DNA of 28,668 nt, taken from positions 1-28,668 of the IMG/VR virus record IMGVR_UViG_3300020469_000193. One strand, given 5' to 3'. Below are positions 3,878-21,545 of this stretch, one piece after another; the stretch's first letter is position 1, and each line of letters begins with the position of its first letter. The stretch is from a virus. A model generated the notes under the pieces. That model searched no databases, was not told the DNA's origin, and was given only the letters and a program-made list of their open reading frames with translations. A program made the position numbers and the translations under genes.

Positions 3878-4270
3878 ATGGCAGGAGCTCCAGGATTAGT
3901 AGAATATAAAAATCAGCCAGCAATACCGCCTGAAGTACAAATGACACCTACGTTTATTACTTACGGTGGATATGAATATAGTGAATCAGATTATTCGTAC
4001 GTTGGATGGGTTGGTAAATCTATGCAACAATATTACGTACCTGATACGTTGACATGGTTAGATAGCGCTGACTTCATTGCCAGATCTTTAAAACTAAAAT
4101 ACGCAAATCCTGGAAAATATATTAGACATACTGAAGAAGGAACTATACTTGGTTTCGATTCAGATGGATTCCCTCTTAAATATAGTGATGATTCTTGTCG
4201 CGCAATAGCGTCAAATTTACTAGATGAAATAATATCATATTGTAATGAACATGATAATATAGGTTATTAG
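3878..4270 (+). CDS. Unknown 130-aa protein, upstream of fibre-like genes
   Basis: A 130-aa protein I do not recognise. It is rich in Tyr and Gly in its first half (YGGYEYSESDYSYVGW) and has a helical C-terminal end (IASNLLDEIISYCNEHDN). It lacks a signal peptide, transmembrane helix, Cys pairs or any known catalytic motif. It sits 4 bases after the coiled-coil gene and 2 bases before the first of three fibre-like genes, so it is almost certainly translated from the same late message. A small virion or fibre-assembly protein would fit the neighbours, but the sequence does not prove this. The reading frame is supported by tight packing and by a start codon directly after the preceding stop. 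Confidence 0.6.
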   Translation: MAGAPGLVEYKNQPAIPPEVQMTPTFITYGGYEYSESDYSYVGWVGKSMQQYYVPDTLTWLDSADFIARSLKLKYANPGKYIRHTEEGTILGFDSDGFPLKYSDDSCRAIASNLLDEIISYCNEHDNIGY

Positions 4271-4272
4271 AA

Positions 4273-5706
4273 ATGCCTATATTAATTGATGCATCATCGA
4301 TAACCTTTAATGCTCAGCCGGGTCCTCAAGATTTAGGGCCTACAAATCAGCCTAGCTCATATGATGGTATAAAACAAACAATTACGCCTCAAAATCCTAC
4401 TGCACTAGCTTCATTAAAAATAGCAGGAGATGCATCTGGTTATACTATGGGTGGAGGTTATTTGCACGCGTTTAACCATCTTAATGGTATAGGACAAATG
4501 CCTTATGAACAAGCCGATATCGCGTTATATAATTCAGGCGGGCTTACCGCGCCACCACAATACGGATATAACTTTATTAGAATGCAGCCAATAGCTGGCA
4601 TTATGGCAGGTACTACGGCTTCTGCATTTGTACTAGGTGCCTTTAGGCTTACTAACGGCCAAGCTATTTTTAAAGGCTCTGGTGGCGATAATTCAAACGC
4701 ATATCAGAGTGCAGACGGAACTACATCATTTTATCCTAATTATAATTCTAGTATACCTGTTTCTAATTCAACTAAATTTCCATTTGCGGCGTCTGGAAGT
4801 GGCCCTATCGCTGTAGCTCTTACAACTGATTTATCTGCAAATGCCATCCCTGGGCGTTATTCACCAGTAGCTTCAGCTCCTGATAGAGCAAATAGCGGCT
4901 TCTTTTCTGGCACCAATTCATCTCGGAATTCCCCCGTGCCCACTCCACAAATCAATTCAGGGATGCAGTCAACGGATGCGAATTACTATATGCCATGGGC
5001 AAGTGAAACTAAAACTAATTTTGGTCCTACACTTTCGCCGCTGGCTCCTCAGATATCGGTAGGTGAAACAGGCCCTGGGAACATTTACCGCCAAGGTTAT
5101 GGCGGCGGTGCAAGATGGGTGCCCAGTGGGCATATCCATTATTGGGGATCAGCGGGCGGCACGCCCTCAGTGAATGCTATCAATAGATTTGGTGTAAAAT
5201 TTCCTACATCTAACTATGTCAGTATTAGTACTGCGGTGACAGTTAACCAATCCCCGTCGACTAATCCTTATTTTGGCGCTTCTGGCGCGGGTCGTCTGGT
5301 TGCACTTTCACCACCAAGCGCAGGCGTTCCTTCTAATATGATAATGGTAGGTGGCGGCGCATCTACTCCGTCTACTACTGTTCCTCAAAGAGGGATAACA
5401 AGATATCCAACAGCATCGGTTACTACTATAGCTGACGGTAGTCCATTAGGCCCCTTTCAAGCAGTTCCATCTCCTCAAATTCCAAGGCACCCGAATCGTA
5501 TGGTTGCAGAAAGCAGTTCTAGTCATTTAATTTATTATGGTGGTACTTCACCGCAACAATTCAACCAACGATATACGTATGTACTTCCATACGCTAGCTT
5601 TAATACAGCATCAGTAAGTTATCAAGGTACTATGTGGGAAGATGCTGCGCAGCCTCAATCGGCTATGCGATATCCTAAAACACAAGGGTTTTCAAATAAG
5701 GTTTAA
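4273..5706 (+). CDS. Probable tail fibre/adhesin with kelch-like GG motifs
   Basis: A 477-aa protein, very rich in Gly, Ser, Pro, Thr and Asn and almost without long helices, as in phage fibres and adhesins. Several segments share the pattern: hydrophobic strand, Gly-Gly, about 15 residues, then a strand ending in Pro. Examples are HYWGSAGG (295-296), IMVGGG (360-362) and IYYGG (423-424). This is like the GG doublet of kelch/beta-propeller blades, but too degenerate for a firm domain call. It shares LHAF (64-67) and GVKFP (307-311) with the gene at 6823 (LHAF at 85-88, GVKLP at 301-305), so the two are probably paralogues. It starts 2 bases after the previous stop. A surface-binding virion role is inferred from composition and location beside gene 13. 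It could instead be a neck or baseplate decoration. Confidence 0.6.
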   Translation: MPILIDASSITFNAQPGPQDLGPTNQPSSYDGIKQTITPQNPTALASLKIAGDASGYTMGGGYLHAFNHLNGIGQMPYEQADIALYNSGGLTAPPQYGYNFIRMQPIAGIMAGTTASAFVLGAFRLTNGQAIFKGSGGDNSNAYQSADGTTSFYPNYNSSIPVSNSTKFPFAASGSGPIAVALTTDLSANAIPGRYSPVASAPDRANSGFFSGTNSSRNSPVPTPQINSGMQSTDANYYMPWASETKTNFGPTLSPLAPQISVGETGPGNIYRQGYGGGARWVPSGHIHYWGSAGGTPSVNAINRFGVKFPTSNYVSISTAVTVNQSPSTNPYFGASGAGRLVALSPPSAGVPSNMIMVGGGASTPSTTVPQRGITRYPTASVTTIADGSPLGPFQAVPSPQIPRHPNRMVAESSSSHLIYYGGTSPQQFNQRYTYVLPYASFNTASVSYQGTMWEDAAQPQSAMRYPKTQGFSNKV

Positions 5707-5712
5707 GATATA

Positions 5713-6807
5713 ATGGCATTAACGTTTACAGAAGATAGTCCGTCTCAATTAACTATAAGTAATAGTGGAGGTAAGGATATAGTACTTACTAACGATCCTT
5801 CTAATCCAACTACTATACCTCAATTTGCGCATGGTTCTAAAGTATCAATACAAGGAACATTATATGGGCAAGTACCTTCAAGTTCTTATGGCGGAATAGG
5901 CGCGTCTGTTCCTGTAACGTATACTATGGCTAGATCTCCTGCAAGCGGTGCCGTAAATGAAGGAACTGCTGTTTCATTTACTGTTACAGCTTCTGATGGA
6001 TCTGCTTCTCCTTATCCTTACACAATTACCGGTATAACTTCAGCTGATTTAAATCCTTCTGGAACAAGTCTCACTGGAACAGGTACTACGGGCACTGCAG
6101 TGCCATTTACTCTTGCAAGTGATAATTCTACCGAAGGTACTGAAACAATGACTTTCACTATTCCAGGTAGTTATACTGGTCCTCAGCAATCGTTATCTAT
6201 TCCTATTTCCGATACTAGCACAACTCCAGGCGGGGGAGGTGGAGGAGGAGGTTCAGGTCCATTTATCGTATTAGGACCGCTATCGGCGCCATATATTACA
6301 TATCCAAATACCACAGGTGGAATTAATAACGTTTGGTTTAGAAGAGGTTTAGTTAGATATAATTTGATAGCCTCTGAACTTAGTGCTGCGGGTATGTCTG
6401 GCCCTACAGCTCTTACTAGTATTTCTTGGAATAATATTAACGTTCCTACCAGACCGACACAACCTCAGTTTACAATACTTTTAGCACCTACATCAAACCC
6501 TAGCGTTAACGCTGGCGCTGTGTCACCACAAACTACAGTTCGCGCATCATCGCCTTTTACTTGGACTAGTGTTGGACCTACAACATTTCCGTTTACAACG
6601 CCTTGGACATATCCAGGAAGTAATGGAATACAAGTTACAGTAATATGGGGTCAAGTTAGTCCAAATTACGCATCTTCCGGTCAAATGGCATTTAGAGCAC
6701 CTGGACGTATGTATTATGCTAGAACTGATGGCAGTGGTTTTTATCCATCAACTCAAGGTACTCCTCAGGCCACCAATACCGGGCGGCCGATAACGGTCTT
6801 TAATTAA
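5713..6807 (+). CDS. Putative virion adhesin: Calx-beta-like domain, poly-Gly linker, beta-rich C-domain
   Basis: A 364-aa beta-rich protein in three parts. After a short N-terminal region, residues about 68-168 resemble a Calx-beta repeat: VNEGTAVSFTVTASDG, then FTLASDNSTEGTETMTFTI, the usual glycine/acidic turn near the Ca-binding end, then LSIPISDTS. Residues 173-180 are eight consecutive glycines, a flexible linker. Residues about 183-364 form a beta domain. Its RGLVRYNLIASELSAAG...LTSISW segment looks like domains in bacterial secreted or cell-surface proteins (YTAAELxAAG...ITSIAF pattern). No signal peptide is seen, as expected for a virion protein. It lies between two related kelch-like proteins, 6 and 15 bases from its neighbours. 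A role in host-surface attachment is inferred; neither the C-terminal domain family nor the ligand can be named with confidence. Confidence 0.6.
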   Translation: MALTFTEDSPSQLTISNSGGKDIVLTNDPSNPTTIPQFAHGSKVSIQGTLYGQVPSSSYGGIGASVPVTYTMARSPASGAVNEGTAVSFTVTASDGSASPYPYTITGITSADLNPSGTSLTGTGTTGTAVPFTLASDNSTEGTETMTFTIPGSYTGPQQSLSIPISDTSTTPGGGGGGGGSGPFIVLGPLSAPYITYPNTTGGINNVWFRRGLVRYNLIASELSAAGMSGPTALTSISWNNINVPTRPTQPQFTILLAPTSNPSVNAGAVSPQTTVRASSPFTWTSVGPTTFPFTTPWTYPGSNGIQVTVIWGQVSPNYASSGQMAFRAPGRMYYARTDGSGFYPSTQGTPQATNTGRPITVFN

Positions 6808-6822
6808 AAGGTTTAATCTATT

Positions 6823-8241
6823 ATGACTATTTTGTTTGAACAAACACAAGACACTATTCGTGGTCATAATTTTATGCTAAGAGGCATTTTTAGTAATGTT
6901 AGTAGTCCTCAAGATAATCACGGAAACATACAGATAAGAACCGTAAGTTATAATACTCAAAATCCTCAAGATCCACAAGGCGATGGCGCGCCATCTGATT
7001 TTACTCATACTGCTTGGGTTTTTGCGGGGCATCCTGTAAATACGATTGCTCCTAATAATACTGCTTCGACACTTTTACATGCATTTACAATAGCTAAGCC
7101 TGGAAACCAATATATAAAATCCGATGATGGTTTTTTTAATTTTGGGTGGCACGGACCTTCTTTGCCTACCGCTCTGCAGCATAATGTTTATCAATTAACC
7201 TTTTCAAATAATACCGAAGTTGCCGTAGGAAGTGCGCAAGGTTATCCTAGCATATATGCGGCGGGCTCAGCGACTGGTCCTACTCAAGTTCTATTGATGG
7301 GTGGCCAAACATCATCAAATAGTGGAGAACAGCAAGCTATATGGTCAATGCCTAAAGCGTCGAAATCTGCGGTATCTATAAATCCGAGTGTGAATACTTA
7401 TTTACCTGCGGTTTTTTCTACAACTAGCAGAAATATAGGCTCAACCCAAGGAGAATCTCAAAATTGGAGTGAAAATGGAAACGATAAATGGTATTCCAAT
7501 GAAGCTGGCGATATATATTCTGGATCATTTGCTAGTGGAAATGGTAGTCGAATTTTGTCAGATATGCGTAATCCCGGTAACCAATCGTTTATGTCCAGTA
7601 GCGTGCTGGCAAACCCCGGTAATGTAGGATCTTCAGGCGAATTTTCTGTTCATTTTCTTAATGGGGATACTCATCCGTATCATCCATTAGTATCTTCTGT
7701 TCCAAATAGTCAACACGAACTTGGTGTAAAATTACCTTTTGCAACAGCTCAAGCAACAGGAGGTTCTATTTTATATCTGCCTCCAAGTCTTTTCGTAAAA
7801 GGCCGCGATATGTCACCAGCTGGCATTGGTAATATAGCAAAAGCTTCGCCAGGAAGTTGGAGATGGGATACTGGAGTAGCTTCTAACGCAGATGCAGTTT
7901 GGGTACACGGTGGTCTGTACTCCAACGTTGGCCCGTACCAACCCGCTTGGAAACAAGTAGGAAAAATTCCATTTTCTAGTATGACTAGTGCTGTTGCATC
8001 GGCCGGAGATGCCGGTCAGTGGGGAGTAAGATATACTCAAGGAAATAGTGATGCAAAAACTGTTTTTATGTCAAAGTCTTTGAATTCGGGATCTCCGGAA
8101 GTCAGCAATTGGAGAACATTTAATTTACAAAATTCAATTACAACTACTACTGTTGGTACAGCATCTGCTGCAGGCCCAGGATATATTCCCGCGGTTCGGG
8201 TAGGAATAAGCAAAGTTGGTGGTTTTGCTTACATCGGTTAA
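6823..8241 (+). CDS. Probable tail fibre/adhesin, paralogue of the gene at 4273
   Basis: A 472-aa Gly/Ser/Asn-rich protein with the same build as the gene at 4273. The two share LHAF (85-88 here), GVKLP (301-305 here) and hydrophobic strands capped by Gly-Gly: VLLMGG at 156-161 with Trp/Pro following (IWSMP), and AVWVHGG at 358-364 followed by AWKQVGKIP. The GG, then Trp, then Pro spacing is that of kelch blades, which suggests a beta-propeller-like body, but this needs a structure prediction. There is no signal peptide or membrane segment. It is the last gene of the fibre-like run; a late promoter begins 5 bases after its stop. Likely a virion surface protein; the receptor is unknown. The paralogy suggests the pair arose by duplication and then diverged. 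Confidence 0.6.
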   Translation: MTILFEQTQDTIRGHNFMLRGIFSNVSSPQDNHGNIQIRTVSYNTQNPQDPQGDGAPSDFTHTAWVFAGHPVNTIAPNNTASTLLHAFTIAKPGNQYIKSDDGFFNFGWHGPSLPTALQHNVYQLTFSNNTEVAVGSAQGYPSIYAAGSATGPTQVLLMGGQTSSNSGEQQAIWSMPKASKSAVSINPSVNTYLPAVFSTTSRNIGSTQGESQNWSENGNDKWYSNEAGDIYSGSFASGNGSRILSDMRNPGNQSFMSSSVLANPGNVGSSGEFSVHFLNGDTHPYHPLVSSVPNSQHELGVKLPFATAQATGGSILYLPPSLFVKGRDMSPAGIGNIAKASPGSWRWDTGVASNADAVWVHGGLYSNVGPYQPAWKQVGKIPFSSMTSAVASAGDAGQWGVRYTQGNSDAKTVFMSKSLNSGSPEVSNWRTFNLQNSITTTTVGTASAAGPGYIPAVRVGISKVGGFAYIG

Positions 8242-8279: not shown

Positions 8280-9032
8280 ATGGCTAATCCGAATAATAGA
8301 CAAGGTTTAATTGATTACGCGATGAGATCTCTAGGAGATCCTGTCATAGAAATTAATATTGACCCAGAGCAGCAAGAAGATAGAGTTGATGAAGCTCTTC
8401 AGTATTATCAAGAATTTCATTCTGATGCTACATTAAGAACTTATCTTAAACATCTAATTACTTCGGACGATGTTACAAATGAATATATTTCTTTAGCATC
8501 AAATATAACATTTGTATCACAATTGTTTCCTATCCGCGGCGGATCAATAACAAGAGATTTCTTTGATATAAAATATCAATTACATTTAAATGATATAGCC
8601 AATCTTCAGACTTACATGGGAGATTTAGGTTACTATGAACAAATGCAACAATATCTTTCTTTGATTGATATGAGAATGAATGGTACTCCTCAAGTCCAGT
8701 TTTCAAGAAAGCAAAATAGACTTTATATTCACGGCGATTTCACAGATGGTGATTTAAAGGCCGGAGACTACGTTGTAGCAGAGGTATATGAAATACTTGC
8801 ACCAGATTCTCATACGAGTATTTGGAATGATAGATGGCTAAAAGAATATACGACGGCTCTATTTAAAAGACAATGGGGCCAAAATCTTATTAAGTTTGAA
8901 GGTATGACATTACCGGGCGGAGTTACGCTCAATGGCAGACAAATTTATGAAGACGCGCAATTAGATATCGATAGGCTAAAAGAAGCAATCCGCACTGAGC
9001 ATGAGATGCCAGCTGATTTCTTTATGGGGTAA
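8280..9032 (+). CDS. gp13: Neck protein gp13
   Basis: A 250-aa homologue of T4 gp13, which joins gp14 on the filled head to form the neck to which the tail binds. Recognisable blocks are the start MANPNNRQGLIDYAMRSLGDPVIEI, the EQQEDRVDEALQYYQEFHSD helix, the central aromatic-rich IRGGSITRDFFDIKYQLHLND region, and the C-terminal WLKEYTTALFKRQWGQNLIKFEGMTLPGG block, which is highly conserved in this family. It is shorter than T4 gp13 (about 309 aa), as in marine T4-like phages. It is the first gene behind a late promoter and is followed 3 bases later by gene 14, its assembly partner. Confidence 0.9.
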   Translation: MANPNNRQGLIDYAMRSLGDPVIEINIDPEQQEDRVDEALQYYQEFHSDATLRTYLKHLITSDDVTNEYISLASNITFVSQLFPIRGGSITRDFFDIKYQLHLNDIANLQTYMGDLGYYEQMQQYLSLIDMRMNGTPQVQFSRKQNRLYIHGDFTDGDLKAGDYVVAEVYEILAPDSHTSIWNDRWLKEYTTALFKRQWGQNLIKFEGMTLPGGVTLNGRQIYEDAQLDIDRLKEAIRTEHEMPADFFMG

Positions 9033-20254: not shown

Positions 20255-20280
20255 AAGGGCGCTTCGGCGCCCTTTTTTTT
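20255..20280 (+). terminator. Strong intrinsic terminator after gene 23
   Basis: AAGGGCGC (20255-20262) pairs with GCGCCCTT (20267-20274) around the very stable tetraloop TTCG, followed by a T run to 20280. It ends the head operon. The stop of the antisense oxygenase gene overlaps the T run, so from the other strand the same stem may also stop that message, though less well, since only a short T run (AGTTT) follows there. Confidence 0.93.
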
Positions 20281-20944
20281 AATTCTCGTATCCTATTTCC
20301 CAATTACTTTGTTGATCAAAAACATCCCCTATAACCGTATATTGTTTATGAGAATTTGGGATCGGGTGAGATTCTTCATCCATTGATGATAATTTAACAT
20401 GGCCATTATTTAAAGGATCTACATATATAAACCAGCCCGTGATAATATATTTAGTGCGTTCTTCACTTATTTGACCGACGTGAGGATGAGTAAACTCAGC
20501 TGGCCAAATAAGGGTATTTCCTATTGTAGCTTCTGCAGTGTAATCTTGTTCTGGAAAATGAGTGCCGCCGTTAGGAACGTCATTTAAATAAGTCATAAAA
20601 ACAAAACAGCGGTATGGAATAAACACATCTCTTTCGTAATGTACTTGTTTAAATCCTTGGCCTGGCTTGTATTTTTGTACATTAGCCATTTCTAAAGTAA
20701 AATTAGATACTTTCGCTTTTTCTGCGAATTTGTATATTTCAGGCATAATAGAATCAAAATATTTTGTCCAAAGCTTTGTAAAATCAAGTTTAGTAAAAGA
20801 ACAATCCATGCTGTCTTTTATATGAGGCTGAACTTTATCAGAAGATAATCCGGGTGAAGTTTCTACAGCACCATGCTCAAAAACTCTGATAACATTTTTA
20901 CAAAGTTGTTCATCTATTTTAAATGATTTGATCCAGTTATTCAT
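20279..20944 (-). CDS. 2-oxoglutarate/Fe(II)-dependent oxygenase (P4H-like), antisense
   Basis: A 221-aa oxygenase, the only convincing minus-strand gene. The start at 20944 is chosen because a GAGGAG ribosome site lies just before it, while the longer frame would run through the divergent gene at 20997. The core (about residues 85-175) shows KYKPGQGFKQVHYERD with H102-x-E104 in place of the commoner H-x-D, YRCFVFMTYLNDVPNGGTHFP, then WPAEFTHPHVGQ with distal H155, and K165 ten residues later in TKYIITGWF for 2OG binding. This is the P4H-like subfamily often seen in marine T4-like phages. The substrate is unknown: a phage or host protein residue, or a sugar. It sits as an insert between gene 23 and the recombination genes, convergent with gene 23. 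Confidence 0.85.
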   Translation of the reverse strand: MNNWIKSFKIDEQLCKNVIRVFEHGAVETSPGLSSDKVQPHIKDSMDCSFTKLDFTKLWTKYFDSIMPEIYKFAEKAKVSNFTLEMANVQKYKPGQGFKQVHYERDVFIPYRCFVFMTYLNDVPNGGTHFPEQDYTAEATIGNTLIWPAEFTHPHVGQISEERTKYIITGWFIYVDPLNNGHVKLSSMDEESHPIPNSHKQYTVIGDVFDQQSNWEIGYEN

Positions 20945-20965
20945 AAAATACTCCTCATAATGTAT

Positions 20966-20973
20966 TATAAATA
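20966..20973 (+). promoter_or_regulatory. T4-type late promoter (TATAAATA) before the tail-tube-fold gene
   Basis: An exact late octamer in the 52-base divergent gap between the antisense oxygenase and the gene at 20997. The predicted start is near 20979, giving an 18-base leader with GGAG at 20986-20989. Readthrough could carry late transcription into uvsY and uvsW. Confidence 0.77.
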
Positions 20974-20996
20974 TAGTCAACCTATGGAGACTATTT

Positions 20997-21545
20997 ATGC
21001 CTGAATTAAATCCAAGCGTTAAAGTTAATGTTTCAGATGTCACACCCACAAGCGGGTTAAATAACTTGAATCTATTACAACCTAATGCGTTTAAATTAAT
21101 TATAGATAGAAAGAACTTTTCAAATTTAGAGTTCTTTGCACAAGCTGTAATACATCCCGATATTTCTGTTCAAGCTGCAGATGTAGCGTATCAAAGAATT
21201 AGTAGTATAGCGATGGCCGGTGATAAGCTAACATTTGGCGAATTATCTGCTATGATTATATTAGATGAAAATCTTAATTCTTATATTGAAATGTACAATT
21301 GGGTGAACAGATTAGTAGAATCAAATGACAGAACGCCGATCAATAGAGATGTTGCAAAACCTCCTACTTATTGCGATATCACTCTTAGTATATTGTCAAG
21401 CCACAATAATCAAACCCGAAAAGTTAAATATATAGACTGTGTACCTACCGGTCTTGGTAACATTTCTTTCGAATCTACGAGTGGCGGTGAGGCGTTTATA
21501 ACTTATCCAGCGAACTTTAGATTTTCTTACTTTGAAATTGAATAA
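20997..21545 (+). CDS. Tail-tube-fold virion protein (gp19/gp54-like; gp3 tail completion is an alternative)
   Basis: A 182-aa protein with the plan of T4-type tail-tube relatives: LLQPNAFKLIIDRKNFSNLEFFAQAVIHPDIS (strand, then the FFxQxVxxPxxS motif), AMAGDKLTFGELSAMIILDENLNSYIEMYNWVNRL (the GDxLxFxxLxxxxxxDExxxxYxxxxxW pattern), and a closing TYPANFRFSYFEIE strand. Those patterns occur in tube-like proteins of the baseplate-tube interface. In marine T4-like genomes the slot between genes 23 and uvsY is, as I recall, annotated as gene 3, the tail completion/sheath stabiliser, and the length (T4 gp3 176 aa) would fit. I cannot choose between these by eye. It has its own late promoter and a GGAG ribosome site, consistent with a virion protein. 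Confidence 0.62.
   Translation: MPELNPSVKVNVSDVTPTSGLNNLNLLQPNAFKLIIDRKNFSNLEFFAQAVIHPDISVQAADVAYQRISSIAMAGDKLTFGELSAMIILDENLNSYIEMYNWVNRLVESNDRTPINRDVAKPPTYCDITLSILSSHNNQTRKVKYIDCVPTGLGNISFESTSGGEAFITYPANFRFSYFEIE

Follow-up and report, generated by a model that had tools for sequence, protein, structure and literature searches.

A candidate fibre adhesin of an uncultured marine T4-like phage, with a C-terminal domain related by homology to a Bacteroidota secreted-protein module

Introduction

Among the closest described systems are phage proteins whose domains have been recruited or exchanged. In crAss-like phages, tail-associated BACON repeats represent a Bacteroides-associated domain recruited into tail proteins (PMC6949934); among the papers found on type IX secretion, tail fibers, phages and domains, this study is the closest precedent. 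The collar fibre of T4, fibritin (wac), is described as having swapped C-terminal modules, of which the Ig-like ones are proposed to be accessory adhesins (PMC3797505), and a study of gut phages describes phage Ig-like proteins acting as adhesins on epithelium (PMC13370021). Two further precedents apply by fold: domains with carbohydrate-binding folds in the central fibre gp20 of mycobacteriophage Douge bind host (mycobacterial) glycans (PMC13033339), and a CBM-like domain of the esterase PbeAcXE helps in substrate binding (PMC9105624).

Here, we analyse a protein encoded at positions 5713–6807 of a 28,668-base viral record (hereafter the window, meaning the whole stretch of DNA analysed). Its C-terminal domain (C-domain) is comparable to crAss-like BACON, as described, in that BACON is a Bacteroides-associated domain in phage tail proteins; BACON differs in being another, named family that occurs in tandem repeats, and the two are likened by description rather than by sequence. 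Similarly, T4 fibritin is a phage fibre with exchanged C-terminal modules but one in which, as described, the N-terminal domain is conserved and the shaft is a coiled coil; none of the fibritin models in the Pfam and PHROG scans matched our protein. No paper joining Calx-beta, phage and tail fiber was found in the literature, and among the listed titles and abstract openings on Calx-beta and phages none describes such a protein.

Results

Genomic setting of the protein

The nearest cultured phages by the window's major head protein are T4-like, the best being Phage C48C1 (66%), and include phages of Methylophilales, Pelagibacter and Synechococcus. The window represents part of a T4-like phage genome. 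The features discussed below are as follows.

4273–5706, + strand: upstream neighbour in the fibre cassette, 477 aa, unnamed and fast-changing
5713–6807, + strand: ORF of 364 aa with an ATG start, proposed fibre adhesin
5713–5910, + strand: residues 1–66, proposed virion attachment; start conserved in relatives
5911–6228, + strand: residues 67–172, Calx-beta-like phage stalk module (262-module family, with its Calx-beta match, Big_9 comparison and acidic positions given below)
6229–6252, + strand: Gly8 linker, codons 173–180 (GGC GGG GGA GGT GGA GGA GGA GGT)
6253–6804, + strand: residues 181–364, C-terminal lectin-like beta-sandwich, homologous to a Bacteroidota secreted-protein module
6823–8241, + strand: downstream neighbour in the fibre cassette, 472 aa, unnamed and fast-changing
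8280–9032, + strand: gp13-like head-tail adaptor (phrog_211, E 2.2e-41), marking the T4-like neck locus

The ORF (+ strand, ATG start, 364 aa) agrees with the original prediction, and the domain boundaries given there (residues 68–168 and 183–364) are close to those found here (67–172 and about 183–364). A scan of viral contigs recovered 15 loci related to the protein: 12 with the C-domain, and three with the N-terminal module alone. In two of the 12, the protein is 100% identical to that of the window, and eight relatives from other assemblies share 47–89% identity with it. Because of this conservation, together with synonymous variation among the glycine codons, we regard the ORF as a true gene rather than a frame open by chance.

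Direct scans of the window protein against Pfam, NCBIfam, PHROGs and PDB sequences gave nothing significant, and for residues 1–66 no library match was found in the Pfam and PHROG scans. Searches of cultured phages by tblastn found no match for the whole protein, for a distant copy of the C-domain or for its bacterial counterpart; the same type of search of plasmids found no match for the C-domain. A full-length AlphaFold model, made from nine alignment rows, reached a pLDDT of 45 and was set aside as of low confidence.

The ORF sits within a fast-changing gene cassette that ends at the gp13-like adaptor. The order of the genes starting at 2905, 3878, 4273, 5713, 6823 and 8280 is the same in a distant relative, L010, in which the protein is 50% identical to that of the window (residues 65–361) and the products of the two flanking genes are 27–29% identical over the aligned parts. 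The latter range also holds for the flanking proteins' counterparts in L012 and L013; these two proteins matched no family strongly in library scans and nothing in cultured phages. The genes immediately upstream of the neck genes carry structural or tail fibre annotations in Phage C48C1 and Melnitz-3. Both the order beside the gp13-like gene and the annotation of this slot place the ORF in the fibre locus; by gene order, the neck genes lie downstream of the fibre slot that it occupies. The protein probably belongs to a fibre of the tail or neck, and residues 1–66 would attach it to the virion.

Several other genes of the window were noted by eye. A nucleotide-sugar epimerase-like gene and a two-part oxygenase-like gene (452–2887) adjoin the fibre cassette, a position that they keep in the related contig L313, and a 256-aa ORF on the - strand (20279–21049), among head and tail genes, resembles an iron-dependent oxygenase. 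An Interferon match of the ORF at 2905 (E 0.0007) was discarded as chance or composition.

The C-domain is homologous to a bacterial module

The suspected counterpart of the C-domain was a module of Bacteroidota secreted proteins, of which we take TPFxWDGxxN to be a motif. A first scan of genome contigs, with profile A2, found no relative. Scanning the DNA of genome contigs for the motif gave at least 120 stretches which, among the matches listed, were mostly from Bacteroidota, with some from Cloacimonadota and other phyla. A bacterial HMM was built from 122 modules taken from these stretches. It matched the window protein with 39.6 bits (E 1.4e-11) and, among 554 viral ORFs, all 13 ORFs of the family and no others above threshold. 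The C-domain alone scored 42.6 bits; of 3000 shuffles the best reached 11.2, and the reversed sequence scored -3.6. With the motif region masked, 27.6 bits remained (E 6.8e-8) and thus the homology result is not carried by the choice of motif; the part after the motif, taken alone, matched weakly (E 1.3).

The comparison holds in the other direction. Aligned by hhalign, a phage-only profile matched the bacterial module at 98.6% (E 9.4e-16) over 159 columns, nearly end to end, and reverse searches with this profile found the module in four of five chosen genomes and in 7 of 198 Bacteroidota genomes (one of the seven being the chosen centre). With the mixed profile A9, the count rose to 32 of 198. 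Profile homology therefore runs across the whole Bacteroidota module, and the bacterial surface-like domain proposed in the original prediction has found its counterpart. A match of profile A4 to IcmE/DotG, in which no stretch passed alone, was discarded as chance or composition.

Collinear as they are, with HMM matches in both directions, the two forms differ in three respects. Firstly, they share only about 20% identity. Secondly, the full motif is absent from the C-domain: phage copies of the family read TPWTYPG or TPFTYPG, so that YPG stands where the bacterial motif has its fully conserved WDG, and a scan of viral contigs for the exact pattern TPFxWDGxxN gave no match. Thirdly, the ends differ. 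The tails of 57 bacterial modules in ORFs closed at the 3' end were read by eye, and many are presumably type IX sorting domains; inspected in the same way, the phage ORF carries no such tail and ends with the C-domain, at ITVFN.

The regions upstream of the bacterial module (n=92) contain Ig_7 (24), fn3 (16), Calx-beta (5) and other domains. When 24 members of the family (two phage, 22 bacterial) were scanned, none had a Pfam or NCBIfam match better than E 0.03. The family thus lacks a model in the copies of Pfam and NCBIfam searched, even though many Bacteroidota carry the bacterial form.

Predicted fold of the C-domain

An AlphaFold run on the C-domain, with bacterial rows added to give 61 alignment rows, predicts a beta-sandwich with confidence (pLDDT 85.6, pTM 0.88). 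Its neighbours by VIA-align are the CBM-like parts of the esterases PbeAcXE (Z 10.7; 3.2 A over 148 residues) and CspAcXE (Z 10.2), a polyvinyl alcohol esterase (Z 10.0), and tail proteins of phages phi812, Bxb1 and Douge (Z 9.1 to 9.9), these being the best among those listed, where middling Z values are common. Any likeness to the CBM-like domain that acetyl xylan esterases of the FjoAcXE type carry would be one of fold, at a middling Z: identity is about 9%, a sequence match is absent (sequence searches with the C-domain found no solved CBM), and the phage protein has no esterase domain. The Douge match (Z 9.1, 8% identity) covers residues 487–683 of the central fibre gp20, a segment that may lie outside the glycan-tested constructs. 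Foldseek ranks first, in the PDB, one chain from the capsid unit of cyanophage A4 (E 6.3e-05) and, in BFVD, an uncultured phage protein (E 7.8e-08).

The original prediction had set similarity to bacterial domains against an ordinary phage-fibre fold; here the two coincide, with a profile similarity to the bacterial module and a predicted fold that is also phage-fibre-like. Likeness of a modelled fold does not by itself show function, and these neighbours serve as precedents by fold rather than as proof. From the fold, the most likely surface ligand of such a domain would be a glycan.

Other phage copies and the origin of the module

Two further pattern scans of viral contigs yielded 15 stretches; 12 contain the module, four of these being members of the known family. 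Six contigs (L306, L309 and L311 to L314) hold a more distant copy. One of them, L313, was read gene by gene: it is syntenic with the window, and its module lies in the C-terminal half of a 430-aa protein at the same locus, preceded by a faint stalk match (15.5 bits). In L304 and L305, the module ends a 408-aa protein (73 bits). L305 is an unrelated phage contig in which the module protein (4019–5245) is encoded downstream of a tape-measure-like gene, in a tail locus; its module keeps the bacterial-type TPFVWDG. Against 1000 shuffles each, the L305 module scored 76.8 bits (best shuffle 9.5) and that of L313 27.0 bits (best shuffle 9.1).

In a 63-row tree of the module, the T4-like copies form one clade (100/99), which groups with a Flavobacterium copy (97/90); L305 is placed elsewhere among the Bacteroidota. 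The tree suggests two separate phage gains, but a topology test does not reject a single phage clade (p-AU 0.773), and the likelihood of the tree in which the phage copies are kept together is higher; the data fit either one or two acquisitions.

We infer a phage-ward direction of transfer from where the module is common. It could instead be an old fold, of fibre or lectin type, that phages and Bacteroidota have in common, the phages not being recipients and the link being ancient or a transfer in reverse. The resemblance of the C-domain to domains of unrelated phage tail proteins would suit such a history, as would the long branches of some parts of the tree and its lack of an outgroup. It is harder to reconcile with the distribution of the module (32 of 198 Bacteroidota genomes, versus viral contigs only of the window's T4-like group plus L304 and L305) and with the grouping of the T4-like clade with a Flavobacterium copy, and we regard it as rather improbable, though deserving some weight.

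The Calx-beta-like stalk module

For the stalk module (residues 67–172), a second scan found 241 relatives; from the best 80 of these, 91 ORFs yielded 262 unique modules, which were aligned. The resulting phage profile matched a set of 33 bacterial Calx-beta domains, found with Pfam's Calx-beta model (PF03160), at 97.4% by hhalign (E 1.2e-11, ~91 columns), as compared with 2.7% for Big_9 and 0.5% for the bacterial family of the C-domain. There is, therefore, profile homology along the Calx-beta domain. In direct searches, the window protein matched no family at E 10, and none of nine records exceeded Pfam's cut-off for PF03160; among 36 single stalk modules scanned against Pfam at E 0.01, one matched Calx-beta and three matched Big_9. 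Going by these scans, single stalk copies are too divergent for Pfam models. The Calx-beta-like part of the original prediction accordingly stands in the profile-profile match and fails in direct library scans of the window protein; since the Pfam, NCBIfam and PHROG scans gave nothing significant, the label is valid at the profile-profile level only.

Six positions (E83, D112, D137, E141, E144 and D167) are acidic in 95–99% of 263 aligned rows. They may correspond to the calcium ligands of known Calx-beta domains. Calcium binding in the stalk is putative, and the conserved acidic residues suggest that calcium possibly stiffens it.

The module can also be repeated in tandem, with as many as 13 copies in one ORF, after which the C-terminal ends differ; in several array proteins (L209 2927–4621, L205 2390–6463 and others), the array is followed by a cupredoxin-like tail of about 105–110 residues. 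Separately, joint acquisition of the Calx-beta part and the C-module as one bacterial unit was considered and found unsupported: of the 92 bacterial cases, only 5 have Calx-beta ahead of the module, and the phage stalk profile found no match among the 2219 ORFs of the bacterial loci (best E 0.12).

In cultured phages, relatives of three stalk modules were found in 14 records, comprising cyanophage gp5-type baseplate hub proteins and hypothetical proteins. The presence of a related module in hub proteins, like the A4 capsid unit chain as best PDB match, would fit a neck or baseplate decoration or a structural spacer, in which the C-domain joins subunits instead of forming a receptor-binding tip. 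We consider this unlikely, given that the gene lies in the fibre slot and that the domain is C-terminal in each setting seen. The latter includes L313 (same locus) and L305 (tail locus), both of which count towards a fibre tip, the reading that we favour.

The glycine linker

The pure Gly8 linker lies exactly where it was originally predicted. The tract is eight residues long in the window and in the two assemblies identical to it, seven in L004 to L009, and three to five in L010 to L013. The glycine codons vary synonymously between relatives, and nearly all copies use a mixture of them; three GGT are found in L010 and in its twin, L011. The three assemblies of the window virus have identical DNA across the whole gene.

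The original prediction also held that the tract might slip, which would make it a switch altering linker length or frame. A G-rich tract with three consecutive GGA codons, differing in length between lineages, is what such a switch might look like. With codons mixed, three assemblies identical in DNA, and lengths (8, 7, 3–5) that track lineage, slippage is a most improbable explanation, and this part of the prediction finds no support. The pattern fits a flexible linker, the length of which drifts between lineages.

Discussion

The analysis supports, at the level of sequence, a modular protein consisting of a Calx-beta-like part, a pure glycine linker, and a C-terminal module that shares homology with a domain found in secreted proteins of Bacteroidota. 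On balance, we favour the view that it is a virion surface fibre adhesin of a T4-like phage, with a stalk, a hinge and a lectin-like, ligand-binding tip. From these homologies and the position of the gene, we infer a location on the virion and a role in adhesion. The proposed arrangement is that (i) the N-terminal residues anchor the protein, (ii) the Calx-beta-like module, a member of a widespread phage family, provides a short and perhaps calcium-stiffened stalk, (iii) the glycine tract would act as a flexible hinge, and (iv) the C-terminal beta-sandwich would form the tip and bind a surface ligand, presumably a glycan.

A broader and distinctly speculative proposal is that the module defines an undescribed lectin-like family, present in secreted surface proteins of Bacteroidota and at the fibre tips of at least two kinds of tailed phage, and binding the same kind of ligand in both. 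If this were true, the bacterial modules would be a guide to phage receptors. For the phage of the window, a protein in the fibre slot of an uncultured T4-like phage becomes a receptor-binding candidate, and whatever the bacterial module binds offers a route to its ligand. The protein family also illustrates a simple design, in which a common phage stalk module is combined with exchangeable C-terminal ends.
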